Source: Actinotalea soli
Lineage (GTDB): Bacteria > Actinomycetota > Actinomycetes > Actinomycetales > Cellulomonadaceae
NCBI RefSeq assembly: GCF_017565425.1
Contig: NZ_JAGEMK010000004.1
Coordinates: 62,001-126,000, forward strand
Direction of reading: 5' to 3'
DNA: 64,000 nucleotides
The notes beneath the pieces are model-generated. The model was given only the letters and a program-made list of their open reading frames with translations, had not been told where the DNA came from and searched no databases. Shown piece after piece: positions 49,091 to 63,819 of this stretch (positions are counted from its first letter, which is position 1; every line of letters begins with the position of its first letter). The position numbers and the translations under genes are program-made.

Positions 49091-50116
49091 TCAGGCCGGA
49101 GGCGGCGCCGTCGACTCACGGACCACGAGCTCGGCGGCGATCAGCTCCTGGCCGGTGGTGGAGTCGCCCTCGAGGGCGGCGAGCACCATCTCCAGGGCGA
49201 GGGCACCCAGCGCGGCGAAGTCCTGCCGCACAGTCGTCAGCGGAGGCAGGAAGTGCGCGGCGTCGGGGAGGTCGTCGAACCCGACGACGCTGACGTCCTG
49301 CGGGACGCGGATGCCACGGCTCGCCAGACCGTGGAGCAGCCCGAGGGCCATCTGGTCGTTGCCCACGAAGATGGCGGTGGTCTGCGAGAAGTCATGGGTC
49401 GCACCGACGTGGTGCCCGAACCCGGACGTCCAGTCCCCGACGACCGGTTCGACGACGGGCAGCCCGGCTGCGGTGAGGGTCTGGCGCCAGGCCTGCTCCC
49501 GCCCGCGGGCGTCGTACCAGTCCAGCGGGCCCGCGAGGTGCATGATGCGGCGGTGCCCGAGCTCGATCAGGTGCGAGACCGCGAGCGACGCACCGGCCTG
49601 CTGGTCGACGGCCGCCGTGTGCATGGCGGTCTCCGGCTCAGCCTTGATCACCACCGTCGGCATCCCCAGCCCCTGCTGCCGCAGCACGTCGAGGGACGAG
49701 GCTCGGGGCGCGATGACGCACAGCGCCTCGATCCCCTGCGGGACGAGCTCGACGAGGCCGCTCTCGATCTGGTGGTCCTCGTCCTCCGACAGGGAGAAGG
49801 CGCTGATCGCGTAGCCCGCACGCCGGGCGGCGCTCTCGAGGGCGCGCAGGGTGCTGTTCGGGCCGTACTGGACCGGGGCGTCGACGATGACGCCGATCCG
49901 CATGGTCCGCCGGGTCGCCAACGCCCGGGCGATCGAGCTGCGCGTGAAGTTCGTCTCCGCGATGGCCTGGAGCACCTTGGTGCGCGTGGAGTCGCGGATG
50001 TTCGGGTGGCCGTTCAGCACCCGGGACACCGTCATGTGGGACACCCCGGCGACCTTTGCAACGTCGTAGATGCTGGGCCGTTGCTGTCGGACGCTGCGCG
50101 TCGTCTGCTCGGCCAT
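49091..50116 (-). CDS. LacI-family transcriptional regulator of the GH43 locus
   Basis: 341 residues. HTH SIYDVAKVAGVSHMTVSRVL (about 15-34) and hinge helix STRTKVLQAI... RSSIARALATRR, followed by a periplasmic-binding-protein-like sugar sensor (about 70-335, with VGNDQMALGLLHGLASRGIR and VVGFDDLP). LacI regulators bind palindromes with a central CG; such sites lie at all promoters of the LamG-GH43 genes to the right, making it their probable repressor, induced by an oligosaccharide (inference). No such site is seen at its own promoter. Confidence 0.92.
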   Translation of the reverse strand: MAEQTTRSVRQQRPSIYDVAKVAGVSHMTVSRVLNGHPNIRDSTRTKVLQAIAETNFTRSSIARALATRRTMRIGVIVDAPVQYGPNSTLRALESAARRAGYAISAFSLSEDEDHQIESGLVELVPQGIEALCVIAPRASSLDVLRQQGLGMPTVVIKAEPETAMHTAAVDQQAGASLAVSHLIELGHRRIMHLAGPLDWYDARGREQAWRQTLTAAGLPVVEPVVGDWTSGFGHHVGATHDFSQTTAIFVGNDQMALGLLHGLASRGIRVPQDVSVVGFDDLPDAAHFLPPLTTVRQDFAALGALALEMVLAALEGDSTTGQELIAAELVVRESTAPPPA

Positions 50117-50330: not shown

Positions 50331-51389
50331 TCATGGCGCGGGCACCGAGACCGAGCGACGCCCCTCGTCGCGGGCACGGGCCAGGAGGATGTCGAGCCGA
50401 CGACGCCGACGCCGGCGGTTCCCGACCGCGGAGTAGGCCACGAGAGCCAGACCGAGCAGGACGAGCAGCTGGGGCCACGGCACCGCCCACATCCGGACCT
50501 CTGCCGTGACCGGGGTCATCTCCGGCGTCGACCCGTCGACGGTGAGGACGACGGGATCGAGCTCGACGGTGACAGGAAGGGACACCAGGGGCCACACGTC
50601 GTCCACCTCGACGGACACCGTCCGGGAGTCACCGGGGAGGAGCTCCTGGCGGCCCGCCTCCTCGCTGGGGAAGGCGACCTCCTGACCGCCGACAGCCACC
50701 GACCCCTCGGCCAGGAGCCGGGTGTTGCCGTCGTTGAGGACGTCGAACGTGACGGTCGCGCTGCCGGGGCGCGCGGGGTTCCAGCGGACCTCGTACCCGG
50801 GGTCCACGCCGGAGATCGTCGCCCCAGGCGCGATCTCGCCGTTGACGCGGGTGATCACCCGGAGCCCGACCCTGCTCTCGACGCCGACCTGCGCCCCGTC
50901 CCCGTCGGACTGCACCGAGGACACCGAGGCGGTGATGCCTGCTGCGTGGTCACCGGGCTCGGCGTCCTCCGGCACGGCGATCGCGAACGGGACGAGGGCC
51001 GTCTCCCCGGGCCCGACCGTGACCTGCTCGGGCAGGGTGACCCACGTCCCTGCGCCCACCGACTCCTGGTCGGCGGGCAAGATGTCGAAACGTCCGGTCC
51101 GCGTGGTGAACCCGTCAGCCGCGAGCAGCCGGAAGGTCGCGCCGACCCGGCTCAGGTTCCTGACGGCGAGAGAGTCCTCGACGCCCTCACCAGGATCGAG
51201 GGCATGCTCGATCGCGCTCCTCTCGTCCGCACCCGACTCGTCCGCGGGGCGCACCGACCAACGGATGTCGGCCGTGTCGTCCTCCGCGGCCGCAGACGCG
51301 GCTGCGGAGGACGACATCAGGGCACCTGACGCGACGGCCAGCACCATGAGGGCGCGCAGGGCGACGGCAGGGACGCAGAACCTGGGCAC
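50331..51389 (-). CDS. WxL-peptidoglycan-domain (DUF916-like) membrane protein
   Basis: 352 residues. Signal peptide (about 1-38), then a beta-rich WxLIP/DUF916-like domain (about 40-170, with NLSRVGATFRLLAADGF, PFAIAVPEDAEPGDHAAGIT), a second beta domain (about 180-300), one membrane helix (about 308-328) and a basic RRRRRRRLD tail. In Gram-positive Firmicutes such proteins anchor WxL proteins to the cell wall. Here it follows a small secreted protein with a WxL-like end, 44 bp upstream. GTG start; an internal ATG 14 codons later could also serve. Confidence 0.75.
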   Translation of the reverse strand: MPRFCVPAVALRALMVLAVASGALMSSSAAASAAAEDDTADIRWSVRPADESGADERSAIEHALDPGEGVEDSLAVRNLSRVGATFRLLAADGFTTRTGRFDILPADQESVGAGTWVTLPEQVTVGPGETALVPFAIAVPEDAEPGDHAAGITASVSSVQSDGDGAQVGVESRVGLRVITRVNGEIAPGATISGVDPGYEVRWNPARPGSATVTFDVLNDGNTRLLAEGSVAVGGQEVAFPSEEAGRQELLPGDSRTVSVEVDDVWPLVSLPVTVELDPVVLTVDGSTPEMTPVTAEVRMWAVPWPQLLVLLGLALVAYSAVGNRRRRRRRLDILLARARDEGRRSVSVPAP

Positions 51390-51433: not shown

Positions 51434-52054
51434 TCACCAGACGTCGTCCCACAGCGTCAGCGTGAGGGTCGCGGAGTAGCTCCCCGGGGTGACGTCGACG
51501 GGCGTCTTGAGGAAGAGGTCGGCGTTCGCCTCCCAGGTCCCGACGGGCCGCGCCTCCCCGGCGTCGAGGGCGAGGGCGAGCAGCTCCTCGCTCACGAGTC
51601 CGACGTTGGGCGCGGTCTCGTCGAGCACCGTGTTGACCTGCTCGCCCTCGGCGACCTCGCCGTCGGCCTCGGTCAGGAGGCGTGGGGTCCACCCGAGGTG
51701 GCCCGCGGCGATCGACTCACCCCCGGCACCGGTGAAGGCCGAGGACTGGCCGACCACGTACCAGTAGGACTGGTCCGGCACCTCCTCGCGGTCGTCGGTG
51801 ACCGTGACCGTCGGGAGCACGCCGCGGAACTCGCGGACGTCGAGCTCGCCGGAGTCGACCTCGGTGAGGGTGGCGGAGTCCGAGGCGACCGTCATGGCCA
51901 GCTCCCCGGCCGGGGCCAGCTCCTCGATCTCGACGTTGACGTCGACCTCGTCCTGCCCGAGCTCGTCGGCCATCGCCGCTCCGCCCACACCGACCAGCAG
52001 CAGACCTCCAGCAGCCCCGACAGCCGTGCGGGCCAGCACGCTCCTTGTGTCCAT
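51434..52054 (-). CDS. Secreted WxL-like surface protein
   Basis: 206 residues. Signal peptide (about 1-28, ending GGAAMADE) and a beta-rich body ending PGSYSATLTLTLWDDVW, which resembles the terminal YxATLTWTL element of WxL domains that bind peptidoglycan, although the second WxL motif is not obvious. Probably held on the cell surface by the DUF916-like protein encoded 44 bp downstream. ATG follows GGAGAGAAG. Its promoter region carries LacI-type operators shared with the GH43 gene. Confidence 0.65.
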   Translation of the reverse strand: MDTRSVLARTAVGAAGGLLLVGVGGAAMADELGQDEVDVNVEIEELAPAGELAMTVASDSATLTEVDSGELDVREFRGVLPTVTVTDDREEVPDQSYWYVVGQSSAFTGAGGESIAAGHLGWTPRLLTEADGEVAEGEQVNTVLDETAPNVGLVSEELLALALDAGEARPVGTWEANADLFLKTPVDVTPGSYSATLTLTLWDDVW

Positions 52055-52582: not shown

Positions 52583-55270
52583 GTGACAGGCCACCCCTCA
52601 CCACCCTCCCGGGGCCGTCCGAGGACCGCCCGCGCCGCCGCGGGGACCGTCGTCCTCGTCGCAGCCCTCCTGCCGCTCACCGCGACGGGCGTCGCGGCCG
52701 AGCCCTCCGACGCCCCTCGCGCCGGTCTGGTCGCCGAGTACCTGTTCGACCAGACCTCGGGCACCAGCGTCCCGAGCAGCACGGGTGACGCGATCGGCCC
52801 CGCCACCGTGGTCAACGGCACCGACGAGCTGTGGACTGGGTCCTCCCTCGTCCTGACCGGCGGGGCAAAGAGCGGCCCCGGCAGCTGGGTGCGCCTGCCC
52901 GAGGACCTCCTCGAGGACCGCTCCTCCGCCACGGTGACGATCGAGACCAGGCTCGACGCCTCGATGAAGACCAGCTGGAACTTCCTCTGGAACATCGGCA
53001 GCGACTCCACGACCGAGTACTACTTCGCCTCGGTCCGGGACGCTGCGCGCACCGCCATCACCGCGAGCGGCGGGGGCGGGGAGGCCAACGCGCGCTCGGG
53101 CAGCGCCCTGGACGCCGACCGCTGGTACAGCCTCACCTCCGTGCTCGACGGCGAGGCGGGCCGCCTGACCTTCTACGTGGACGGCGAGCAGGTCGGCTCG
53201 ACCGCGACGACGCTCACCCCGGCGGCGATCACCGACCAGTCCCTCAGCACGATCGGGCGGGCGCCCTACGACGACCCTCTCTACCGTGGCGAGGTGTCCA
53301 CCTTCCGCGTCTACGACCGGGCGCTGAGCCCCACCGAGGTCGCCGCCGTCTCGACCGCTGACGCCACCATCCATGCCGCGACCCACGAGGCTGCGGCGCA
53401 GGCCGTCCTGGACCGGGTCAGCCCCGTGACGATCGACGAACCCGTCACGACGCTGCCCAGCTACGGCGGGCGCGTGACCTGGACCTCGACCGACCCCAGG
53501 CTGACGATCGGCCAGGACGGCGTGACGGTGACCGCGGAGCAGCCGGCCCCGGGGACCGACCCGATCTCGACGACTCTCACCGCGACGGCGACGGTCCGTG
53601 GCACCCAGGCGACCGACGAGGTCTCCGCCACGGTGCGCGCGACCCCCGCGGCCGACGAGCCGTTCGGCTACGCGATGGTGCACTTCATCGAGGACTCGGC
53701 CGGGTACGCCGAGAAGATCTACCTCGACGTCTCCCGAGGCGACGACCCCGAGCGGTGGGACCCGCTCAACGGTGGCGAGCCGATCCTCGCCTCGCACCTG
53801 GGCACCACCGGGGTGCGCGACCCGTACCTGACCTACAACCCCGAGACGGGGACGTACTACATCATCGCCACGGACCTGCGGGTCTTCGGCGGGGACCGCG
53901 GCGCGGGCAGCTGCGTCGAGTGGTGCCACTGGAGCTCGCAGGGCAGCACGAAGCTCAACGTCTGGGAATCGCCCGACCTGATCACCTGGAGCGGCGTGCG
54001 CCAGGTCGACGTGGCCCTCGACGTCGACGGCACCACCCCGGCCGAGCTCGGCATGGCCTGGGCCCCCGAGGCCACCTGGGTCGAGGACTACTACCCGGAC
54101 GGCAGCGGCGCCTTCGTCCTGTACTGGTCCTCGAACGTCTACACCGACGCCCAGCACACCGGGCCGACCTACTCTCGGGTGCTGTGGGGAGCGACCTCTG
54201 ACTTCACGCAGGAGACCTACGAGTACGGCGGGGTCTTCATCGACGAGGGTGGCAACACGATCGACACGACGATCACCCAGCACGACGGGACCACCTACCG
54301 CGTCACCAAGGACAACTCGGCCGGCAGGGGCCTGTACATGGAGTCCACCACGGCCCCCCGGTGGTGGGAGCCGTCGGCGACGTGGTCGACGATCCAGACC
54401 ACCATCGGCGCGTCCTGGGCGGGCGGGGACCCCGGCGGCGTCGAGGGCCCAGCCATCTTCAAGGCCCACGGTCAGGACCGCTGGTACCTGTACGTCGACG
54501 TCATCCCCACCACCGGGTACCGCCCGATGGTCACGACCGACCTGGACGCCGGCTGGACCGTGCTGGACAGCCCGGGCTTCTTCATGGCGCCGAGCACCAA
54601 GCACGGCGGCATCATCCCCCTCACCGGCGAGCTCTACGCGGACCTCCGAGCAGCCGACGCGACCGGAGCGGTCACCACCGACCTGGGCAGCGTCGAGGTG
54701 CCCGAGGGGGCCGACGACGACGTGCTCCGGGCCGCCCTGCCCGGTTCGGCCGAGGTGACCCTCGCCTACGGGCGCGGCACGGCCGAGCAGCCCGTCGACT
54801 GGGACCTCGCCACCGTGGACCGCACGACCGCCGGGACCTACCCGGTCACGGGGACCGTGCGCACCATCGGCGCGAACCTCAACCAGTGGGTCGGGGCGGG
54901 CGGATCGACGGCCTGGGACGCCGCCGGCCGTGAGCCGTACAGCTCGACCGCCGTCGTCGTCGAGGCCGAGGTGGTGGTCGTCGACGCCGCGGCGCCGGAG
55001 GTGGGGGTGGCGGCCCAGACGCGGTGCGTCGCCGGGTCGGTCGTCCTCGCCGTCCGGGTGACGAACGAGGGGGAGGTCCCGGTCAACGCCACGGTCACCA
55101 CGGACCACGGTGCCCGCACGGTCGGCTCGCTCGAGGCCGGGAGGAGCGCGTCGGTCGCCATCTCGACCCGTCAGCCCGCGATCACGGCGGGGAGCGTCAC
55201 GGTGACCGCGGAGGCCGACGGCAGGACGGCGTCCGGGACCAGCCCGTACGCCGGGGCTGACTGCGGCTGA
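52583..55270 (+). CDS. Secreted LamG-GH43 glycoside hydrolase 1
   Basis: 895 residues. Signal peptide (about 1-40); LamG/concanavalin-like lectin domain (about 48-260, LVAEYLFDQTSGTSVPSS, then DRALSPTEVAAV); a bacterial Ig-like domain (about 275-355); a GH43 five-bladed propeller (about 365-690) with catalytic base in GVRDPYL (near 412), the helper acid position as AWAPEATW (near 493, Glu where Asp is usual) and the general acid in VEGPAIF (near 620); an Ig-like domain (about 695-800); and a C-terminal two-Cys domain (TRCVAGSVV... ADCG). GH43 enzymes cleave arabinan or xylan side chains; exact substrate unknown. GTG after AAAGGAG. Confidence 0.9.
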   Translation: MTGHPSPPSRGRPRTARAAAGTVVLVAALLPLTATGVAAEPSDAPRAGLVAEYLFDQTSGTSVPSSTGDAIGPATVVNGTDELWTGSSLVLTGGAKSGPGSWVRLPEDLLEDRSSATVTIETRLDASMKTSWNFLWNIGSDSTTEYYFASVRDAARTAITASGGGGEANARSGSALDADRWYSLTSVLDGEAGRLTFYVDGEQVGSTATTLTPAAITDQSLSTIGRAPYDDPLYRGEVSTFRVYDRALSPTEVAAVSTADATIHAATHEAAAQAVLDRVSPVTIDEPVTTLPSYGGRVTWTSTDPRLTIGQDGVTVTAEQPAPGTDPISTTLTATATVRGTQATDEVSATVRATPAADEPFGYAMVHFIEDSAGYAEKIYLDVSRGDDPERWDPLNGGEPILASHLGTTGVRDPYLTYNPETGTYYIIATDLRVFGGDRGAGSCVEWCHWSSQGSTKLNVWESPDLITWSGVRQVDVALDVDGTTPAELGMAWAPEATWVEDYYPDGSGAFVLYWSSNVYTDAQHTGPTYSRVLWGATSDFTQETYEYGGVFIDEGGNTIDTTITQHDGTTYRVTKDNSAGRGLYMESTTAPRWWEPSATWSTIQTTIGASWAGGDPGGVEGPAIFKAHGQDRWYLYVDVIPTTGYRPMVTTDLDAGWTVLDSPGFFMAPSTKHGGIIPLTGELYADLRAADATGAVTTDLGSVEVPEGADDDVLRAALPGSAEVTLAYGRGTAEQPVDWDLATVDRTTAGTYPVTGTVRTIGANLNQWVGAGGSTAWDAAGREPYSSTAVVVEAEVVVVDAAAPEVGVAAQTRCVAGSVVLAVRVTNEGEVPVNATVTTDHGARTVGSLEAGRSASVAISTRQPAITAGSVTVTAEADGRTASGTSPYAGADCG

Positions 55271-55277
55271 CCTGCAG

Positions 55278-55320
55278 GGTTCGAGGGCCCGCCGGGCACC
55301 CCCGGGCGGGCCCTCGAACC
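55278..55320 (+). terminator. Strong terminator hairpin of GH43 gene 1
   Basis: A perfect 16-bp stem: GGTTCGAGGGCCCGCC (55278-55293) and its complement (55305-55320) around an 11-nt loop, 8 nt after the stop codon. Confidence 0.85.
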
Positions 55321-55349
55321 CCGCGGCGGCCGGGCTCCGGCCGCCGCGG
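55321..55349. repeat. Second perfect hairpin
   Basis: CCGCGGCGGCCGG (55321-55333), GCT, then the exact complement (55337-55349): 13-bp stem with 3-nt loop, abutting the terminator before it. Together they form a double roadblock. Confidence 0.7.
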
Positions 55350-55445
55350 GTCCGTCGAGGGAGGCGACCTCCCCCATCAGCTCGGGACGCTGCGCGTCAC
55401 CCGAGCCTCGCCCCACACCTCGTCCGCACCGGAGACGTCGCCATC

Positions 55446-55694
55446 GTGGACGTGCTCTCCGTCCTGTCCTGGGTCGCGACCACCGCCCGGTCGGGGTCCT
55501 CCTCCGTGGCCAGGGCCGCGCAGCGGAACATGCCCGACGGCGTCCGTGTGGAGCTGGCCGGCCGGGGCGTCCTCGTCCAGGACGTCCACCTCGGGGCCGC
55601 CGACACGGACATGACCGCGGGGAGCGACGGGCCGAAGATCGATCCGGGAGAGGTCGCGCGGGCCAGCCTCGGCCAGGCCCGGCTGGACTGCTGA
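55446..55694 (+). CDS. Possible orphan gene or gene remnant before the G-tract
   Basis: 82 residues from a GTG, no family recognised (VDVLSVLSWVATTARSGSSS... GQARLDC). About 96% of its codons end in G or C while second positions are near 50% GC, the signature of real coding sequence here; the frame stays open further upstream (HLVRTGDVAIVDV), so the true start may be earlier or lost. It ends 12 nt before a poly-G tract. It could be a 3' fragment of a decayed gene. Confidence 0.35.
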   Translation: MDVLSVLSWVATTARSGSSSVARAAQRNMPDGVRVELAGRGVLVQDVHLGAADTDMTAGSDGPKIDPGEVARASLGQARLDC

Positions 55695-55698
55695 GCAG

Positions 55699-55782
55699 AC
55701 CCGTCGGGGGGGGGGGGGGGCCGCGGGCCCCCCCCCCCCCGGGGGGGGGCCGGCCCCCGCGCGCCCCGCCCCCCGACGGGTC
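55699..55782. repeat. Extreme G/C tract bounded by a 14-bp inverted repeat
   Basis: GACCCGTCGGGGGG (55699-55712) and CCCCCCGACGGGTC (55769-55782) pair perfectly. Between them lie long runs of G, then C, then G. The complement of the right half would fit the left half well if the left half were not flattened to G. This may be a real bidirectional terminator between convergent genes with a sequencing artefact in it. Confidence 0.6.
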
Positions 55783-55809
55783 ATCGGATGTGCGAGACCT
55801 GGCGTGCCC

Positions 55810-58800
55810 TCACGAGCAGGTCACCGCGTCGAAGGCCACCTCCTGCGAGGTCGAGACGCTCTGGCCGTCGACCGTGGCCTCGGCATCGATCGTCACGGTG
55901 CCCGCCTCGACGGACGGCAGCCGGCTGCTGAACGCGTGGGTGACCCCCGCGCCCGGCTCGAGGGACGAGGTTCGCGTCCCGTACGGCGAGGTGCTGGTCA
56001 CCGAGGCGGGCACGTCGTCCTCGTTGCGCAGCGTCACGGTCTGCACCACCCGGCCCACCACGCACCGAGCACCCACCGAGGCGACCACGTCGACGGTGGG
56101 ACCGCCGGCGCCCGTCACGGTGACCGTCACCGTGACGGTCCGGTTCTCCGGGGCGACCTCCTCGTCGCTCTCCTGGTCGAAGACGGGCATGCCGTCCGCG
56201 GCCCAGTGCACCCGGCGCACGAAGGTGTCGCGCCCGCTCAGGCCACGGTTGTCGGTCCGGGCGTGGAACACGTAGAGGAGGTTGTCGTCCTCGTCGTAGG
56301 ACCACATGCCGTGCCCGGTCCCGAGCTGCCACTCGCCGTTGAACACCCCGGACTTCTGGACCGGGTAGTTGAGCTTGGTCCACGCCTCCGGGTCCGTGAG
56401 GTCCACACCCTCACCGGCCGTGGCGGTCGCCAGACCGGTCGTGTAGGTGTCACCCACGAGGGAACCCGAGTAGATCATGTACAGGGTGCCCTCGTGCGCG
56501 ATGACGTTGGAGCCCTCGGCGATGGTGTTGTCCCAGGCGTACTCAGGGACGACGATCCGCACGGGCGGCGAGGTGAGCCTCGTGGGGTCCGCCGGGTCCA
56601 TCCTCGCGATGAAGACCGCGCCGAGCATCTGCCACGAGTAGTACGACTGACCCGAGTCCTCGAAGTAGGTCATGTCCAGGGAGATGTTCTGGATCGGGTT
56701 GAGGATGCTCCCGTCGGCCCGCAGCACCTTCTCGGCCTTCGTCCAGTTCTCCGGTACGGCCGGGTCGAGGTCGTTGCCCTCGGCGTCCTGCTCGAGCTGG
56801 ATGATGCTCGCCCGCCCGGTCCACATGTCGGGCTGCCCGTTCGACCCGTTGTAGCAGGGCATGAACAGCACCGACAGCTTCCCCCCGATGACGTGGAACT
56901 CAGGTGCCCAGAAGCACCCCGTCATCACGCCGCCGTCGGCGTCCGTGTCCCCGGCCACCAGCAGGTCGATCTCGGTGTTGCGGCCCTCACGGATCGCGTC
57001 GTCCGAGAGGTCGTCGATGGTGTCGGCGACCCGGATCGGCATGTGCGGGCCGTTCGCCGGGTTGACCGGGTTGAGGTTGAGGTCCTCGGTCGCGATCATC
57101 AGGAACTTCGTCTGACCGTTCCAGTCGAATCGGAAGATCGACGGGTCGGCCCGCTCGTCGGCGAACGGCGTCGGGTACTCGGGCTGCTTGACCGTCCCGG
57201 TGACCTCGTAGGTGCCGGGGGTCGAGGTGTCGACGGCGGCGATGGAGCTCTCGTCCCAGGCGATCGCGCGGGTCGACGTCGAGCCGTCGCTGTAGGCGAG
57301 CTCGGCCCGTCCGGGCAGTGCTCCCGCGTCCAGGGTGGTTCCCGCAGGGATCTCGACGCCGTCGAGGTCCCCGATGCCGGTGTTGACCGCACGACCGAAA
57401 CGCACGTCGAGGGCCTCGGCCACCTCGGCCGTCACGGGCAGGGCGTTGCCGGTGGCGTAGTTCGGCACAGCCGCCTCGCTGACACCGGCCGTCGCGGCGA
57501 CCGTGCCCCCCAGGACTGCTCCGCGCGTCGCGGGGTCGGTCAGGTCGGTGAAGGTGGTTCGGCTCGGCCGTCCGGCGTCGGAGGTCCACGTCACCACGTA
57601 CCTCTCGGCCGCGGAGTCCCACACCACCGCCGGACCGTTCACGCCACCACTGACTCCCAGGTCGACCATCCCGATCTCCTCGTACGAGAGCAGGTCGGCG
57701 CTGCGGGCGAGCAGCATCTGCCCGGCCTGGGTGCCGTCCGAGCCACCGCCCCGGGCGGTCCTGGTCGCGACGAGGCCGAAGCTCCCGTCGGCGAGGTAGA
57801 ACAGGTGCGGGTCACGCAGGCTCCGCAGGATGTTCGCTGTCGTCCCGCTCGCGGCCGGTGTGGTGGCGGTGCGCGGGAAGAAGATCCCGTAGTTCTCGTT
57901 CAGCGGGGTCCACCCGTCCTCCTGCTCGAGGGCGAGGTGCATGCTCAGGGCGATGTCGGCGTTGTTGGCCTCCGCCGCGGTCGTCGGGGTGCGGTGGTAG
58001 GCGAGGAGCAGGGGCGAGCCCTCGGCCGGGAGCACCCGGACCGCGAACTCCCTCTCCGCGGCGAGTCCCGACGCGCTGTCCGTGAGGCGCACCGTGACGC
58101 GACCGTCCACCGTCTCGGCGGAGGAGGAGACGATCGCGTCACCGACCTCGAGGTCGCCGCTCACGCCGATCACCTCGAGGGTCGCCCCGTCAGGGGCAGC
58201 CGGCAGGGCGTCACCCGACCGGACCACCGGTGGGATCACGAAGCGCTCCGCGAGGCGGTCGGCCCGGTCCTGCGCGGTCTCGTCCGAGGGCTGCACGGTC
58301 ACCGTGATGTCGGTGCTCGCGCTGACGCCGCGGATGGTCACGGTCGCCGTCAAGGTCACCTCGGCCGCGGGCTCACCCTCCAGCGGCGGGGTCACCAGTC
58401 CGTTCGGTGCGACGACCTCCGGGGCGCTCGAGGTCCAGGTGACTCGCCCTGAGGCCGTGGGCAGGTCGATGTCACCGCTGGTCTCCAGGTTCGTCAGACC
58501 GAGCCCGTCCAGCACCGCCTGGGCCTGGGCACCGAGCTCGGCCTGGTGGGGCAGCGCGTCCTGGGCCGCGAGGGCTGCGACCTCCTGGGCACCGAGGGCA
58601 CGGTCGTAGACGCGGAAGGCAGAGATGGCCCCCTGGAAGAGGGTGTCCGGCCACGGGGACCGGGCGATCGTGTTGAGCGATTGGTCAGAGATGTCCGCCG
58701 GCGTGGCGGCGACGGCCCCCTGGGCCGCGAGGACCCCGTCCAGGTAGAGCGAGGCGGTGCCGTCGGCATCGACCACGGACGCGACGCTGACCCACTGGTT

Positions 58801-59337
58801 CGCCGTCACCCCGCACGTGCCGGACTGCACCAGCTGCTCGACCCCACCGGCCTTGATGCCCACCAGGGGGGTGCGGCTGTTGCCGCAGTTCAGGGAGGCG
58901 AAGAAGTACTCCGTGGCTGAGGACTCGTTCCCGACGTTCCACAGGAAGTGGAAGGTGCTGAGCATCGCGGTGGAGGCCTTGACCTCGGCGACCACCGTCG
59001 CGGTGCTCGCCCCGCTCAGGATGTCGTCCGGGAGCTCGACCCAGGTGCCGTTCGAGGTCTTCGCGCCGCCGCGCAGCGTGAGCGCGGTGCCGGTCCAGTC
59101 CGCGGCCTGGACGTTGCGGACCACCGCGGCGTCGAGCTCGGAGCCGTCCGCGGTGTTGGGCACCGTCGCGCCCGAGGCCTGGTCGAAGAGGTACTCGGCG
59201 ACGAGCCCGTCGGGGGGTACGGCGGCCTGGACCTCGGTGGGCGCCGTCGCCTGAGCGCCGGTCACTCCCAACCCGAGGACCATGCCGCTCAAGGCGGTGA
59301 GCGCCGCTACCGCGCGCCGTGGGGTGGACAACTGCAT
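55810..59337 (-). CDS. Secreted LamG protein with tandem GH43-like propellers 2
   Basis: 1175 residues. Signal peptide (about 1-38), LamG domain (about 42-255), Ig-like domain (about 265-350), a linker domain, a first propeller-like part (about 430-600) that keeps SLRDPHL (near 507) but lacks WAPE and EGP signatures, an Ig-like unit (about 620-710), and a complete GH43 propeller (about 720-1070) with ADERADPSIF (near 731), CFWAPEFH (near 807) and IAEGSNVI (near 940); then the two-Cys C-terminal domain (ARCVVGRVV... VTCS). Probably an exo-acting arabinofuranosidase or related. The upstream GH43 gene 3 is 126 bp away on the same strand, likely co-transcribed. Confidence 0.88.
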   Translation of the reverse strand: MQLSTPRRAVAALTALSGMVLGLGVTGAQATAPTEVQAAVPPDGLVAEYLFDQASGATVPNTADGSELDAAVVRNVQAADWTGTALTLRGGAKTSNGTWVELPDDILSGASTATVVAEVKASTAMLSTFHFLWNVGNESSATEYFFASLNCGNSRTPLVGIKAGGVEQLVQSGTCGVTANQWVSVASVVDADGTASLYLDGVLAAQGAVAATPADISDQSLNTIARSPWPDTLFQGAISAFRVYDRALGAQEVAALAAQDALPHQAELGAQAQAVLDGLGLTNLETSGDIDLPTASGRVTWTSSAPEVVAPNGLVTPPLEGEPAAEVTLTATVTIRGVSASTDITVTVQPSDETAQDRADRLAERFVIPPVVRSGDALPAAPDGATLEVIGVSGDLEVGDAIVSSSAETVDGRVTVRLTDSASGLAAEREFAVRVLPAEGSPLLLAYHRTPTTAAEANNADIALSMHLALEQEDGWTPLNENYGIFFPRTATTPAASGTTANILRSLRDPHLFYLADGSFGLVATRTARGGGSDGTQAGQMLLARSADLLSYEEIGMVDLGVSGGVNGPAVVWDSAAERYVVTWTSDAGRPSRTTFTDLTDPATRGAVLGGTVAATAGVSEAAVPNYATGNALPVTAEVAEALDVRFGRAVNTGIGDLDGVEIPAGTTLDAGALPGRAELAYSDGSTSTRAIAWDESSIAAVDTSTPGTYEVTGTVKQPEYPTPFADERADPSIFRFDWNGQTKFLMIATEDLNLNPVNPANGPHMPIRVADTIDDLSDDAIREGRNTEIDLLVAGDTDADGGVMTGCFWAPEFHVIGGKLSVLFMPCYNGSNGQPDMWTGRASIIQLEQDAEGNDLDPAVPENWTKAEKVLRADGSILNPIQNISLDMTYFEDSGQSYYSWQMLGAVFIARMDPADPTRLTSPPVRIVVPEYAWDNTIAEGSNVIAHEGTLYMIYSGSLVGDTYTTGLATATAGEGVDLTDPEAWTKLNYPVQKSGVFNGEWQLGTGHGMWSYDEDDNLLYVFHARTDNRGLSGRDTFVRRVHWAADGMPVFDQESDEEVAPENRTVTVTVTVTGAGGPTVDVVASVGARCVVGRVVQTVTLRNEDDVPASVTSTSPYGTRTSSLEPGAGVTHAFSSRLPSVEAGTVTIDAEATVDGQSVSTSQEVAFDAVTCS

Positions 59338-59407
59338 GTCACTCTCCTCCAGATGAGGTCTGAACGTCGTCGGTCAGAGACCGCCGTCGGCGGTCGATGC
59401 TCACGAG

Positions 59408-59444
59408 GGGTCGAGGGCCGCCCGGTCGGGGCAGCCCTCGACCC
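59408..59444. terminator. Hairpin in the gap between GH43 genes 3 and 2
   Basis: GGGTCGAGGGC (59408-59418) and GCCCTCGACCC (59434-59444) pair perfectly around a 15-nt loop. It may end some transcripts of gene 3 or stabilise its mRNA within the operon. Confidence 0.6.
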
Positions 59445-59463
59445 TCCGCCGCGGTCTGCGTCG

Positions 59464-62400
59464 TCAGGCGCAGGTCGTCGGCGAGGACGAGGCCTCGGCC
59501 GAGGTCGTGGAGCCGTCCGCGGCGGTCGCCGTCGCGCTCACGGTGATCGCGGGCAGCGTGCCCTCCCGCGAGCTGAACGCCGAGGTCACCGTCCTGCCCG
59601 CCTCGAGCACGGCGGTCCGCTGGCCGAACGGGGTGCGGACGACCGTGTCGAGCGGGCCGTCGGAGGAGCTCGACACGGTCACGGTCAGCACCACCGCGCC
59701 CCGCACGCACCGGGTGGCGGTGCTGAGGGACATCGGGGTACCGGCCTCGACGAGGACCGTGACCTCGACCGTGGCCCTGGACGCGTCCTGGGCCACACCG
59801 GTGACGGTGAAGCTGCCCGGTGAGGCATAGGCCGCGGGGTCGATCTCCGCCCAGTCGACGTCCACCGTCTGCGCGGACCCGTCGGCCATGGTCAGCTCCG
59901 CCCGAGGGAGGGTCGGCGCGACCCCCGGGGAGGTCGTCACCTCCATCGCCGCGACCGAGGTCACCGCGATGTCCGGGGCGTAGGCCTCGAGGACCTTCTG
60001 GTACTCGGCCCGGGTCACGGGAATGACGGTGCCGTGGCGCGGCTTGCCGCCGTCGGCGTTCTGCGGCAGGTTCTCGCGCAGCTTGGCACCCACGGGCTCC
60101 CACGAGTCGCCGTCGTCCAGGTCGTCCGAGCCGAAGGGGATGTAGTAGTTCGGCCCACCGTGGTAGTCGGGCTGGTCGATGAACAGGAACCAGTCGTGGT
60201 CGTTGACGTCGCCCTCGTTGGCGCGGAACAGGTTGGGGCCCTCACCGCTGGTGAAGGTCCCGCCGGGCTCGCCGTTGGGCAGCCCCGTGGCGATCCGCTC
60301 CTTGATGAGCGTCCACTCGTCGGCCGCCCCGGTGGTGCCGGGCAGCGAGCCGCTCACGGTCGCGAGCAGGTCGGTGGACTTCTCGGCGCGGATGGTCATC
60401 GACGCCTCGTCCTTGGTGAAGCGGTAGTACGTGTCGTCGATCTGGGCGACCGTCGAGTCGATCATGCCGCGACCGTTGCCCCGACGGACGTCGATCCACG
60501 GCCGGGCCTCGGAGAAGGTGACGAAGTCGTCCGTGGTGGCGTACATCATCCGGTTGTAGGTGACCGCGCTGCGCTCGGCCGGGTTGGTCGTCGGGTACAG
60601 GTTCGACGCCCAGAACACCACGAACGTGTCGAGCTCGTCGCTCCAGAACGCCTCGGGGGCCCAGGTGTTGCCCGCGTAGTCCGAGGAGACCTTGACGTGG
60701 CGCTGCTCGGACCAGGTGACCAGGTCGTCGGACTCCCAGACCTCGATGTGCAGGGAGCCGGAGAGCTGGGCCGTGGTGAAGCCACCGGGCAACCCGGCGA
60801 CCTTCAGGTCGGTGGCGATCATGTAGAAGCGGTCGCCCTCGGGGGCGCGGATGATGAACGGGTCACGCAGGCCCTGGGTCCCCTCGTCCGAGACGAAGAG
60901 GGGCTGCCCGTCGTTGAGCGTGTTCCAGGCCAGAGCGTCGTTGCCGCGCGAGGCCGCGAGGCTCACCTGCTCGGCCCCGTCGCCCTCGCCGGTGAAGAAC
61001 GCCCACACGTAGGCCTCGGTCTGGTCGGTGCCGCTGGGCATCGGACGCAGGCGGAGCACGAACTCGCGGGTCTGCGTGGCATCACCGTTGGTCGCGGTCG
61101 CCGTGAGGACGACCTCCACGGGGTCCGTCCCTGCGGCCGGCCGCTCGACCGCGATGGTGCGCGAGGTCGGCGTCACGCCGTCCCGCACGGTCACGTGGTC
61201 GGCGTCCTCGGTCCTCACCGACCAGGAGATGGACGAGCCCTGCTCGCCCGTGGTCGGCACGGAGAAGTTGGTCCGGACGTCGTCGAGGCCGTCGAGCTGC
61301 AGGGCGGCGAGGTCCTGAGCCGCCTTGTCCGACGCGGCGGCGTCCTCGGGGACCTCGACCGCGTAGGTCACCGTCCGGGTGGACTCCCCCGCGGTGAACG
61401 TGGCGGTGAGGGTGACCGTCGCGGCACCGCTGCCCGCGGCGGGACGCGTCACGACGCCCGTCCCACCGTCCACCTGGATCGCGGGGTCGTCCGACTCCCA
61501 GGTCACGGTCGTGCCGTACACGAGGGTGGGGAGGGTCAGGTCAGCGGTGGTGCTGGCCGGAAGGACGAGGGAGGCGACGGCCTTGTCGATCGCCTGGCCG
61601 GCGAAGAGCTCCCCGACCTGCGCTGCGTCGAGGGCCTGCCCGTAGACGGCGAGCTCGTCGACCGTCCCGTTCCACCCGGCGTCGGCGTAGGTCGAGCGGC
61701 CGAGGTAGGCGACGAGGTCGCTGCCGAAGGAGGCGACGTCGCGGTCGATGGCCACCTGCCCGACGGGGGCACCGTTGACGTAGACGCTGAGCTGGCGGCT
61801 CGTCCCGTCGATCACGGTCGTGTACAAGGCCATCCCGGCAGGGGTGCGGATGCCGCTCGTCGCGGCGTTGGTGCTGCCCGGGCCCACCTCGGTGGTCCAC
61901 GGCGAGGTGGCGTTGACCGTGTTGGTGACGACGGACTTCACGTAGCCGCTCGGGTTGGTCGGGTTGAGCAGCCAGTAGGCGGTCGAGTGCTGCGCGCCGC
62001 TGGCCACCGGCGCGCCGATGAAGGCTGCCGCGGTGTTGCCAGCCCCGGACCGAGGGCTCAGCCAGGTCGAGATCGTCAGGTCCTGCTGGCCGACCAGCCC
62101 TGCCGTGGGGATCTCGAGGTAGGGGGCCGCGGTCGCACTGCCGCCCGGAAGGCTGAGCACACCACCGGCGACCTGGGCGCCGGTGCGTCGGAGGGTGGCG
62201 TCGTAGCCGTTCCCGCTGGTGTCGGGGATGCTCGGGCCGGTCGCGTCGTCGAACGTGTAGTGGATCAGCGGCGCGGGGCCGTCGTCCGCAGCGGAGGCTG
62301 CCGCGGGCGTGAAGGCTCCGAGCAGCGCCACGGCGCCCGTGACCGCCGCTGCGATGGCCCGCCGTCGCGGTGCGGGGCCGCGGGGCCACGTGGGCGGAGC

Positions 62401-62496
62401 CCCGGCACGGCGCTGGCCGCGCGATGAGCTCTCGTCGTGGTGCGGCTCCGCCCCACGACGTCGGGTGCCGGTCGCCACGTGCTTGAGGTGCCCCAT
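59464..62496 (-). CDS. Secreted LamG-GH43 glycoside hydrolase 3
   Basis: 1010 residues. Long basic signal region with a hydrophobic core near 50-75; LamG domain (about 80-285, LIHYTFDDATGPSIPDTSGN); two Ig-like domains (about 290-500); GH43 propeller (about 510-830) with base in GLRDPFI (near 543), NTWAPEAFW (near 610) and general acid in GEGPNLF (near 751); Ig-like unit (about 840-920) and the two-Cys C-terminal domain (TRCVRGAVV... TTCA). ATG follows AAGGGATC; reading further upstream would enter the operator. First gene of a likely two-gene operon with GH43 gene 2. Confidence 0.9.
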   Translation of the reverse strand: MGHLKHVATGTRRRGAEPHHDESSSRGQRRAGAPPTWPRGPAPRRRAIAAAVTGAVALLGAFTPAAASAADDGPAPLIHYTFDDATGPSIPDTSGNGYDATLRRTGAQVAGGVLSLPGGSATAAPYLEIPTAGLVGQQDLTISTWLSPRSGAGNTAAAFIGAPVASGAQHSTAYWLLNPTNPSGYVKSVVTNTVNATSPWTTEVGPGSTNAATSGIRTPAGMALYTTVIDGTSRQLSVYVNGAPVGQVAIDRDVASFGSDLVAYLGRSTYADAGWNGTVDELAVYGQALDAAQVGELFAGQAIDKAVASLVLPASTTADLTLPTLVYGTTVTWESDDPAIQVDGGTGVVTRPAAGSGAATVTLTATFTAGESTRTVTYAVEVPEDAAASDKAAQDLAALQLDGLDDVRTNFSVPTTGEQGSSISWSVRTEDADHVTVRDGVTPTSRTIAVERPAAGTDPVEVVLTATATNGDATQTREFVLRLRPMPSGTDQTEAYVWAFFTGEGDGAEQVSLAASRGNDALAWNTLNDGQPLFVSDEGTQGLRDPFIIRAPEGDRFYMIATDLKVAGLPGGFTTAQLSGSLHIEVWESDDLVTWSEQRHVKVSSDYAGNTWAPEAFWSDELDTFVVFWASNLYPTTNPAERSAVTYNRMMYATTDDFVTFSEARPWIDVRRGNGRGMIDSTVAQIDDTYYRFTKDEASMTIRAEKSTDLLATVSGSLPGTTGAADEWTLIKERIATGLPNGEPGGTFTSGEGPNLFRANEGDVNDHDWFLFIDQPDYHGGPNYYIPFGSDDLDDGDSWEPVGAKLRENLPQNADGGKPRHGTVIPVTRAEYQKVLEAYAPDIAVTSVAAMEVTTSPGVAPTLPRAELTMADGSAQTVDVDWAEIDPAAYASPGSFTVTGVAQDASRATVEVTVLVEAGTPMSLSTATRCVRGAVVLTVTVSSSSDGPLDTVVRTPFGQRTAVLEAGRTVTSAFSSREGTLPAITVSATATAADGSTTSAEASSSPTTCA

Positions 62497-62550
62497 TGCA
62501 GATCCCTTGCGTCGCGCACCGGTCACCGTTGACCGACGCTGGCTCGGCGA

Positions 62551-62604
62551 TGTTAGCGAGAACATGCCGTTCGCCAGGCTATGAGGGGGCAGGTGCGCCG
62601 TCAA
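62551..62604 (-). promoter_or_regulatory. Promoter and LacI operator of the GH43 genes 3-2 operon
   Basis: On the minus strand TTGACG (complement of 62599-62604), 17 bp, TAGCCT (complement of 62576-62581). The operator TGTTAGCGAGAACA (62551-62564) begins just after the expected start of transcription, the typical roadblock position. The same 14-mer occurs at 52337-52350. Confidence 0.75.
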
Positions 62605-62706: not shown

Positions 62707-63819
62707 CTACTCCTCGGGGAACGTCACCGGCAGCCCGAAGGCCTCGACGTGCTCCCGCCCCAGGAACGAGGTCACCTGGCAGATCCGTTCACCGCTGATC
62801 GTGAGCACGTTGATCGACCAGGCCTCGAACGGTCCACCGTCCGGGGACAGGTAGCTCACGACGGCGAGCTGCCCGTTGGCCGTGGTCGGCAGGTGGCGCC
62901 ACTGCCCGCAGGTGCTCAGCGGGAGCGCGCGGGCGAAGTTCATGACGGCCTCCTGGCCGCGGTACCAGTGCGGCAGCGGCGGCATGGACCAGGTGACGTC
63001 CTCGGTGAGGAGCGCGACGAGCGCACCCGCGTCACCGGCTTCCATGGCGGACATGAACCTCTCGACGACGTCACGCCGCCCGACGTCCCCGAGCTGCTGC
63101 AGGGTCTGCTGCTGCGCGCCGGCGGGCACCTTCTGGTCGATGAGGCGGCGGGCCCGTTGCAGTGCGCTGGTGACCGAGGCGGTGGTGGTGTCCATGAGGT
63201 CGGCGATCTCCCGGGCGGAGAAGCCCAGCACCTCGACCAGCAGCAGGACGGCGCGCTGGTTCCCGGGCAGGTGCTGCAGGGCAGCGACGAAAGCGAGCTC
63301 GACCGCTTCGCGCTGCTCGTAGCGCGCGGCCGGGCTCGACGCCCCGCCCTCCATCCCCACGTCCGAGTACGGCCCGAGCCAGGCGACCTCGGTGAGGGGC
63401 GTGTCCCCGACGACGGCGTCGTGGCTCGGGCTGGTCAGGTCCATCGGCAAGGCCCGACGCCCCCGCGCCGCAACCGCGTCCAGGCAGGTGCGGGTGGTGA
63501 CCCGGTAGAGCCAGGTGCGCAGGGAGCTGCGCCCCTCGAAGCGCGGGAGTGCTCGCCAGGCGCGCAGGAGGGCCTCCTGGAGCGCGTCGTCGGCGTCGTG
63601 CGTGGAACCGAGCATCCGGTAGCAGTGGGCGTGCAGCTCCCGGCGCAACGGGTGGACGAGGCGGGTGAACGCGGCGTCGTCGCCGGTCCGGGCGAGAGCG
63701 AGGTCGTCGGCCACCGAGTCGCGCACGAGCTCAGGCTCGATCGGCACCTCGCCCTCGAGCGATGAATCAGACCTGTTCTCGCAGTCTCCCCTCGGAGACA
63801 TCGCCACCGACCGCATCAC
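62707..63819 (-). CDS. Sigma-70 factor of the SigJ/TIGR02960 type with SnoaL-like C-terminus
   Basis: 370 residues. Region 2 about 40-105 (DADDALQEALLRAWRALPRF, then SLRTWLYRVTTRTCLDAV), region 4 about 175-235 (LGFSAREIADLMDTTTASVT), then a SnoaL/NTF2-like domain (about 250-365, WSMPPLPHWYRGQEAVMNFA) that usually controls such sigma factors by binding a ligand. No anti-sigma gene adjoins. Start uncertain: GTG 63819, ATG 63816 and ATG 63801 all lack a ribosome-binding site. Divergent from the DUF1905 gene, an expected target. Confidence 0.9.
   Translation of the reverse strand: MMRSVAMSPRGDCENRSDSSLEGEVPIEPELVRDSVADDLALARTGDDAAFTRLVHPLRRELHAHCYRMLGSTHDADDALQEALLRAWRALPRFEGRSSLRTWLYRVTTRTCLDAVAARGRRALPMDLTSPSHDAVVGDTPLTEVAWLGPYSDVGMEGGASSPAARYEQREAVELAFVAALQHLPGNQRAVLLLVEVLGFSAREIADLMDTTTASVTSALQRARRLIDQKVPAGAQQQTLQQLGDVGRRDVVERFMSAMEAGDAGALVALLTEDVTWSMPPLPHWYRGQEAVMNFARALPLSTCGQWRHLPTTANGQLAVVSYLSPDGGPFEAWSINVLTISGERICQVTSFLGREHVEAFGLPVTFPEE

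Follow-up and report, generated by a model that had tools for sequence, protein, structure and literature searches.

The tail domain and its neighbours

The stretch of DNA analysed here, called the window in the following, comprises 64,000 nucleotides of Actinotalea soli (assembly GCF_017565425.1, contig NZ_JAGEMK010000004.1, positions 62,001 to 126,000 of the forward strand). It contains three neighbouring genes for hydrolases that end in the same C-terminal domain with two cysteines, here called the tail. Protein A (52583..55270, + strand, 895 amino acids) consists of LamG_3, a catalytic part of the type of glycoside hydrolase family 43 (GH43), Big_4 and the tail, and begins, by eye, with a signal peptide. 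Protein B (55810..59337, − strand, 1175 amino acids) contains LamG_3, aBig_2, Big_4, GH43 and the tail, and protein C (59464..62496, − strand) contains LamG_3, two stretches of aBig_2, a GH43-type part, Big_4 and the tail. The open reading frame (ORF) of protein C spans 59464-62604 (− strand, 1046 amino acids) and opens at a TTG at 62604, but translation more probably begins at the ATG at 62496, the coordinate given in the first-pass annotation. Protein B is the sole one of the three in which GH43 is over the Pfam cut-off (73 bits). The GH43-type part of protein A matches NCBIfam NF052546 (E 2.2e-30) and that of protein C matches Pfam (24.7 bits) as well as NF052546 (E 1.7e-54), all under the respective cut-offs, as is aBig_2 of Pfam in protein A.

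The tails lie at 54962..55267 (+) in protein A, where the profile match reaches the last residue, at 55813..56133 (−) in protein B and at 59467..59772 (−) in protein C. They run from TRCVAGSVV to DCG, from ARCVVGRVV to TCS and from TRCVRGAVV to TCA, respectively, and in each there is one cysteine close to the start of the domain and a second one residue before the C-terminus (residues 815 and 894 of 895 in A, 1092 and 1174 of 1175 in B, 966 and 1045 of 1046 in C). A first-pass annotation of this DNA had described an [AT]RCV-x-G-x-VV start and these three endings, and the sequences and cysteine positions are as it gave them. Compared with each other, the tails give local alignment scores of 166, 151 and 147, while for shuffled sequences (1000 shuffles each) the mean score is about 40-42 and the highest 67-74 (z 15-17); the three are homologous copies of one domain, as had been proposed. 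Pfam has no family over its cut-off there; of those listed, CARDB alone falls within a tail, that of protein A, with E 0.094 and 13.4 bits against a cut-off of 22.7. No LPXTG motif is seen in them by eye, in agreement with the earlier description of an end with neither LPXTG nor a known carbohydrate-binding module (CBM). A profile made from the three tails finds four copies in the own genome, the fourth being on contig C26, where it terminates another GH43 protein.

Upstream of protein A, beyond the region covered by the first-pass annotation, are two genes whose products are candidate partners of the tail. One (51434..52054, −) encodes a small, putatively secreted WxL-like (CscB-like) protein of 206 amino acids with a D-x-R...W-x-V motif and no Pfam match. 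The other (50331..51389, −) encodes a DUF916/WxLIP-like (CscA-like) protein of 352 amino acids with a hydrophobic N-terminus, a segment near the C-terminus that resembles a transmembrane helix, and an arginine-rich end; its match to Pfam WxLIP_PGBD (E 7.4e-5, 23.2 bits) is under the cut-off of 27.3. At the level of the family, PF06030 is matched at E<=1e-3 by 27 of 29 members (3e-9 for the best), and the solved Enterococcus faecium protein EfmWxLIP1 (9i25_C) is matched with E 1e-5. The C-terminal transmembrane-like segment is likewise present in 27 of the 29 members, the other two being cut by the end of the locus, and DUF3324 is not among the four Pfam families that the 29 members match at E<=1e-3. 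The family of the small protein has 31 members, including seven taken from the long proteins described below. All 31 contain the motif D-x-R...W-x-[VI], and none has a second W-x-L motif, the C-terminal strand being of the kind LTLSL without a second tryptophan; the Pfam WxL model is not among the seven families matched at E 0.1. A structure model of the small protein (mean predicted local distance difference test, pLDDT, 82.5) led in a fold search to GH123 and pilin-type chains, all with low TM-scores, and no chain named WxL is among the best 50.

Tail copies, cysteines and fold

The first-pass annotation had suggested a profile search starting from the three tails, and this search led to a census of 147 distinct copies in the stretches fetched, on unrelated enzyme families. 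Of these, 141 stop exactly at the end of the ORF and 145 within two residues of it; the exceptions are L028, where nine residues follow, and one protein of genome G035. Each of the 147 ORFs has one copy, and even at maximal sensitivity a second copy is found in none. In an alignment of 145 tails, from which L028 (without cysteines) and one fragment were excluded, both cysteines are present in 139 tails, neither in six and a single one in none (Fisher p 8.6e-11, although the rows are not independent). Because the two are present or absent jointly and never singly, they very likely form a disulfide, as would befit the disulfide-closed terminal module first envisaged. Arginine or lysine is conserved at alignment positions 23, 54 and 71 (133, 137 and 138 of 145 tails). 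Judging from the order of the strands and not from coordinates, R23, C24, Y51-G52, R/K54, R71, Y101 and C106 should cluster at one end of the domain, which would be the side of the C-terminus and point away from the enzyme; the conserved residues N37, G61, Y65 and Q66 lie outside that end, and the last residues of the tail are variable. A 638-residue ORF of G467 (L214) ends in a divergent tail with two cysteines and a terminal GCA that scores 20 bits, and the family may therefore be wider than the profile reaches.

Structure prediction, also suggested earlier, gave a confident result for the tail of protein B: the AlphaFold2 model is all-beta, with a mean pLDDT of 92.6 and a predicted TM-score (pTM) of 0.82, and the predicted fold is a generic immunoglobulin (Ig)-like sandwich without a specific relative. 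Foldseek gave a best E of 4.9e-3 with this model and VIA-align gave Z of up to 9.9, to Ig-like domains of transglutaminase, COPI, GH2 and MSP; the fold is generic, and no family was inferred from these matches. Designed Ig proteins found by a sequence search of the PDB (E 4e-5 and 6e-5) were read as sharing a common Ig sequence pattern and not as kin. Matches of the 145 tails to Pfam are scattered and weak, the best being to DUF4232 (E 1.7e-4; 22 tails at E up to 0.1), and CBM_35 is matched by five tails at E up to 0.1 (best 0.018), both among the best 25 of 44 families; CARDB is matched by two tails (best E 0.0031). In NCBIfam the best match, among the best 25 of 42 families, is choice_anch_T (E 2.2e-4, two tails). 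A clear match to a described CBM or anchoring family, by which the first-pass annotation would have been overturned, was thus not found in these searches. The likeness to the Ig-like domains DUF4232 and CARDB is weak at the sequence level, and kinship with the former was rejected after profile-profile comparison with eight DUF4232 members (hhalign probability 8.6%). Kinship of the tail with the small WxL-like proteins (0.5%) and with the DUF916-like proteins (5.4%) was likewise rejected by hhalign. A limited search of open-licence PMC papers found no description of the tail in the text that it covered.

Enzymes that carry the tail

The richest genomes are G025 and G028, with 63 and 36 matches to the three-tail profile, and stretches of both align with Cellulosimicrobium loci at about 79-90% DNA identity. 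In these two genomes 97 of 98 tailed proteins, trimmed to 1,700 residues, were scanned for domains in batches of 44, 36 and 17 (best 25 of 75, 25 of 72 and 25 of 27 families considered). The clients on the glycoside side include GH43, GH92, GH76, GH2, GH32, GH49, GH59, GH106, pullulanase and rhamnogalacturonan lyase, and the other activities include GDSL lipase, S8 and M28 peptidases, metallophosphatase and ThuA; a GH31 is a further client. Some of the tailed proteins also contain CBMs of other families. Since the tail is found on unrelated activities including peptidases and phosphatases, substrate binding, one of the roles first considered for it, is disfavoured.

Most tailed proteins appear to be exported. 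In a crude test a signal-like N-terminus was seen in 127 of 139 tailed ORFs versus 74 of 618 untailed ones, the latter being ORFs of at least 350 amino acids in any frame, non-genes included. Among GH43 ORFs, the tailed share is 9/9 in G025, 6/11 in G028, 2/2 in G082 and 3/7 in G000. Inspected by eye, six of the nine untailed ones have no export signal (the start being unsure in two of the six), two others begin with a membrane segment and one, L142 of the own genome, has a signal peptide. A general export tag, another of the earlier proposals, is disfavoured because of this untailed but signal-bearing GH43 and because exported Cellulosimicrobium glucanases end in CBM13, according to the part of the literature used here (PMC1458353).

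What stands at the C-terminus of related enzymes points to holding at the cell surface. The GH43 part of protein C has 42 distinct homologues in 24 other genomes of the order, and 17 of them, from five genomes, end in the tail. Of the 25 without a tail called by the profile, four have LPXTG-like or transmembrane ends and one has SLH, one ORF runs off its stretch, and one is the G467 protein with the divergent tail; the last 420 residues of the 25 also contain CBM5/12 (two), ricin (one), AbfB (one) and Big_3_5 (five) domains. In G502 there are tailed paralogues as well as LPATG ones. LPXTG and SLH anchors thus occupy the same end of GH43 homologues as the tail, which differs from them in being a folded domain without an LPXTG motif or a transmembrane helix. 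Counts of LPXTG matches were tried as a proxy for replaced anchoring, but they overlap (0-5 in eight tailed genomes, 3-13 in six tail-free ones) and are not decisive.

Association of the tail with the gene pair

In a search of 18 genomes the DUF916-like protein was found in all 12 tailed genomes and in two of the six without a tail, with 32 matches in all, and the surroundings of 21 of these, the 14 best included, were read. These 14, which are spread across the 12 tailed genomes, all adjoin a small WxL-like gene. A tailed ORF is in the same stretch of 8-16 kb in nine cases (G000, G005, G082, G437 three times, G474, G502 and G504) and is absent from it in five (G025, G028, G062, G081 and G087). 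In the six tail-free genomes no pair with the small gene is among the matches read; one of the four matches there was not read, and the small gene was not searched for alone. The other seven DUF916-like matches (G025, G028 twice, G437, G026 twice and G036) adjoin a long protein of 563-1153 amino acids (open frame) whose end is distantly related to the small protein and scores 51-90 bits with the small-gene profile versus 203-303 bits for the small genes themselves. None of these seven stretches contains a tailed ORF. The motif of the long proteins is D-x-R-x5-W-x-I in five cases and has a longer spacing in two, and tail-free genomes have them too; their loci look like actinobacterial clusters with a large WxL protein. 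The long proteins, each beside a DUF916-like gene, are at L246 2279-5737 (+), L248 3933-5633 (+), L249 3230-5194 (+), L253 2167-5565 (+), L254 6307-8271 (−), L255 6663-9227 (−) and L257 6271-7959 (−).

Seen from the side of the tail, 10 of 20 loci found by the tail search have a gene of the pair within at most 12.3 kb, seven of them both genes and three the small gene alone (one of these three being a match of 60 residues). In 21 loci that contain both tail and small gene, most of which were fetched because they bear a tail, the distance from the small gene to the tailed ORF is 17-2006 bp (to the open frame), and 19 of these stretches also contain a DUF916-like gene. These loci come from Actinotalea, two Microbacterium, Glycomyces, Frigoribacterium, Microbispora, Tessaracoccus, two Dactylosporangium, Clavibacter, Cellulosimicrobium and Nonomuraea, among others. 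Distances between tails correlate with distances between small proteins (Mantel r 0.65, 21 loci) and between DUF916-like proteins (0.58, 19 loci), and those of the two partner proteins with each other (0.82, 19 loci), in each case with no control for species. In Nonomuraea the tail gene, the small gene and the DUF916-like gene follow in this order on one strand, and the record has no product annotation at this locus.

Distribution

At E<=0.01 the three-tail profile hits 16 of 59 genomes, the own genome included. A profile of 145 tails has matches at E<=1e-8 in 72 of 150 genomes of the family (best 32 candidates scored per genome) and at E<=1e-6 in 4 of 296 genomes across the phylum, again including the own (best 16 scored per genome). 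Carriers are Actinotalea, Cellulosimicrobium, Microbacterium, Frigoribacterium, Rathayibacter, Tessaracoccus, Glycomyces, Microbispora, Dactylosporangium and two unclassified records, and a further search with four records in all added Clavibacter and Nonomuraea. G005, which is placed in the genus of the window, contains the Actinotalea sp. C106 locus (100% over 12,261 bp). The tails of 25 reciprocal-best pairs between G025 and G028 are on average 58% identical, paralogues within the genomes 51% and 45%, and non-orthologues across the genomes 46.5%. Orthologous tails are more alike than paralogous ones, therefore tails are mostly inherited with their enzymes, and homogenisation of tails inside a genome was rejected on these values. 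Two of the loci are on plasmids, L258 on pCCh of Clavibacter phaseoli and L259 on pCPRO01 of Cellulosimicrobium protaetiae; the stretch read contains four tailed ORFs in each, together with the pair. Here the pair is annotated as 'DUF916 domain-containing protein' and 'hypothetical protein', among GH43 and LamG genes. Spread by way of such plasmids is possible.

Interpretation

The csc clusters of Firmicutes encode a DUF916 protein with a transmembrane segment, a small WxL protein and a large protein that has a WxL domain at its C-terminus, and in the parts of the literature used here the three are proposed to form a complex on the surface in which DUF916 binds WxL (PMC10599100, PMC9772566, PMC1534035). 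More than 91% of 938 WxL sequences are from Firmicutes (PMC9772566). The loci described here resemble these clusters in having a DUF916-type protein with a putative membrane anchor and a small, apparently secreted D-x-R...W-x-V protein, encoded beside large secreted proteins that share a C-terminal domain. They differ in that DUF3324, the Pfam WxL model and a second W-x-L motif are not matched, therefore the pair would be csc-like in its working and not a strict csc member. They also differ in that the C-terminal domain of the clients is unrelated to the small protein, and in that the clients are catalytic and can number dozens. Because tailed enzymes stand beside the small-gene pairs where a large WxL protein would be, the tail may be a C-terminal docking domain for surface retention on a csc-like platform, a reading to which we give a probability of roughly one half.

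The enzyme would be exported by means of its N-terminal signal peptide, and the tail would fold outside the cell into the predicted Ig-like sandwich, its ends clasped by the putative bond between the cysteines. It would then dock on a platform of the membrane-anchored DUF916/WxLIP-like protein and the small WxL-like protein, whose genes are associated with it, and the enzyme would be held on the cell, close to the sugar transporters through which its products enter. The tail would thereby have the role of the C-terminal WxL domain in the 'large WxL' proteins of Firmicutes, through an unrelated domain and with many clients per genome. Among the roles first considered for the tail, holding at the surface is favoured because of the partner genes and because of the homologues with LPXTG-like, transmembrane or SLH ends, and the binding itself is a proposal made from sequence.

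There are also several observations that weigh against docking. In the tail-rich genomes the small gene is in none of the stretches with tails (0/40 in G025 and 0/28 in G028), and therefore one unlinked pair would have to serve dozens of clients. It is present in 2 of 11 tailed stretches of the GH43 comparison, in 0 of 23 untailed and in 0 of 9 further untailed ones, where the untailed stretches are shorter overall, so that this comparison alone is a weak control. The pair was not found in the fetched stretches of G002, G027, G031, G035, G048 and G057, the remaining genome not having been searched, and among the 11 of 32 DUF916-like matches whose surroundings were not read, one is in a tail-free genome. 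Linkage and co-variation may instead reflect the co-inheritance of a cluster for polysaccharide use. Both tails that flank the pair in G024 (L126 1493-10832) are without either cysteine, therefore the clasp is not essential, and in the exceptional G035 protein a CBM5/12 region is C-terminal to the tail. A further point comes from CeDex, a dextranase of Cellulosimicrobium sp. THN1 with 1,065 residues, to which the account used here assigns domains up to residue 965 (PMC9691899). It probably ends in a tail, as the last 100 residues have no domain in that account and a G028 protein of the same order, GH49, glucodextranase-B and glucodextranase-C, is tail-ended. CeDex from the culture medium is about 71 kDa, the GH49 part alone being predicted at 68.2 kDa, and the product is deduced to stop near residue 637, a site not verified there (PMC9691899). 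Release from a C-terminal part that stays on the cell would give this result, and so would free secretion. Since a C. cellulans glucanase with CBM13 is proteolysed as well (PMC1458353), the cut was set aside as specific evidence.

The best of the rival explanations, though unlikely, is that the tail directly binds a wall polymer of its own cell (peptidoglycan, a teichuronic or another glycopolymer) as a single-copy module, the WxL-like pair being a separate surface component of the same clusters. This follows the same logic of surface retention, the conserved arginine or lysine residues could face an anionic polymer, and in the tail-rich genomes the pair does not lie beside the tails. Wall-binding modules of the LysM or SLH kind, however, usually occur as repeats, and no ORF has a second tail; the different occurrence of the DUF916-like protein in tailed and tail-free genomes, and of the small-gene pair among the matches read, also speaks against direct wall binding.

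Less probable still is a structural cap, in which the clasped sandwich would shield the C-terminus of long exoenzymes from proteolysis and aid their folding with no partner. Exoenzymes of C. cellulans are exposed to proteolysis (PMC1458353, in the part used here), the cysteines are at both ends of the domain and the activities of the clients have little else in common. A cap leaves unexplained both the linked gene pair and the six of 145 copies without cysteines, and the exported GH43 L142 of the own genome does without it.

Only a slight chance is given to a sorting signal that some enzyme cuts or exchanges, as PorU does for the C-terminal domains (CTDs) of type IX secretion: the cysteine pair is dispensable, the last residues are variable, and the tail-bearing organisms are not known to have an outer membrane. 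The tail and the CTDs of Bacteroidota are alike in being a single Ig-like domain with which many unrelated exported proteins end (PMC4804311, in the part used here), but the hosts of the tail belong to another phylum with another envelope, and the tail has cysteines at both ends. Type IX CTD models are not among the best 25 of 42 NCBIfam and 25 of 44 Pfam families, type IX components not having been sought. The cut, probably tailed CeDex in the medium would suit such a signal, but its deduced and unverified end is far upstream of the tail (PMC9691899). Least probable of all is a CBM for the substrate of the enzyme, and a substrate-specific one is unlikely: many clients degrade polysaccharides and the beta-sandwich is the common CBM fold, but the tail is carried by ThuA proteins, lipases, metallophosphatases, a subtilase and an M28 peptidase as well, it occurs in proteins that already have CBMs of other families, and it is single in 147 and terminal in 145 of 147 cases.

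A broader and more tentative proposal, which we consider somewhat doubtful, is a general protein-docking system of Gram-positive actinobacteria. In it, a receptor pair of small WxL-like and DUF916-like proteins would receive up to dozens of exported enzymes via one C-terminal domain, as a cell-bound analogue of cohesin and dockerin or of type IX display, and it would have spread as a unit between actinobacterial groups and onto plasmids. Were docking true, it would give a rule for which polysaccharide-degrading enzymes of actinobacteria are held by the cell (tailed) and which are released, and explain the unannotated end on dozens of Cellulosimicrobium-like enzymes. It would also offer a natural tag for the display of enzymes on Gram-positive cells, and extend csc/WxL platforms to enzyme display in Actinomycetota.

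Neighbouring genes

Two further genes of the window adjoin those discussed above. Next to the pair, at 49091-50116 (−), is a gene that by eye encodes a LacI-type regulator; on the Cellulosimicrobium protaetiae plasmid a LacI regulator and a sugar ABC transporter are annotated in the tailed cluster. Protein C is adjoined by a sigma factor gene (62707-63819, −), whose product has sigma-70 regions 2 and 4 followed by SnoaL_2 at the C-terminus.

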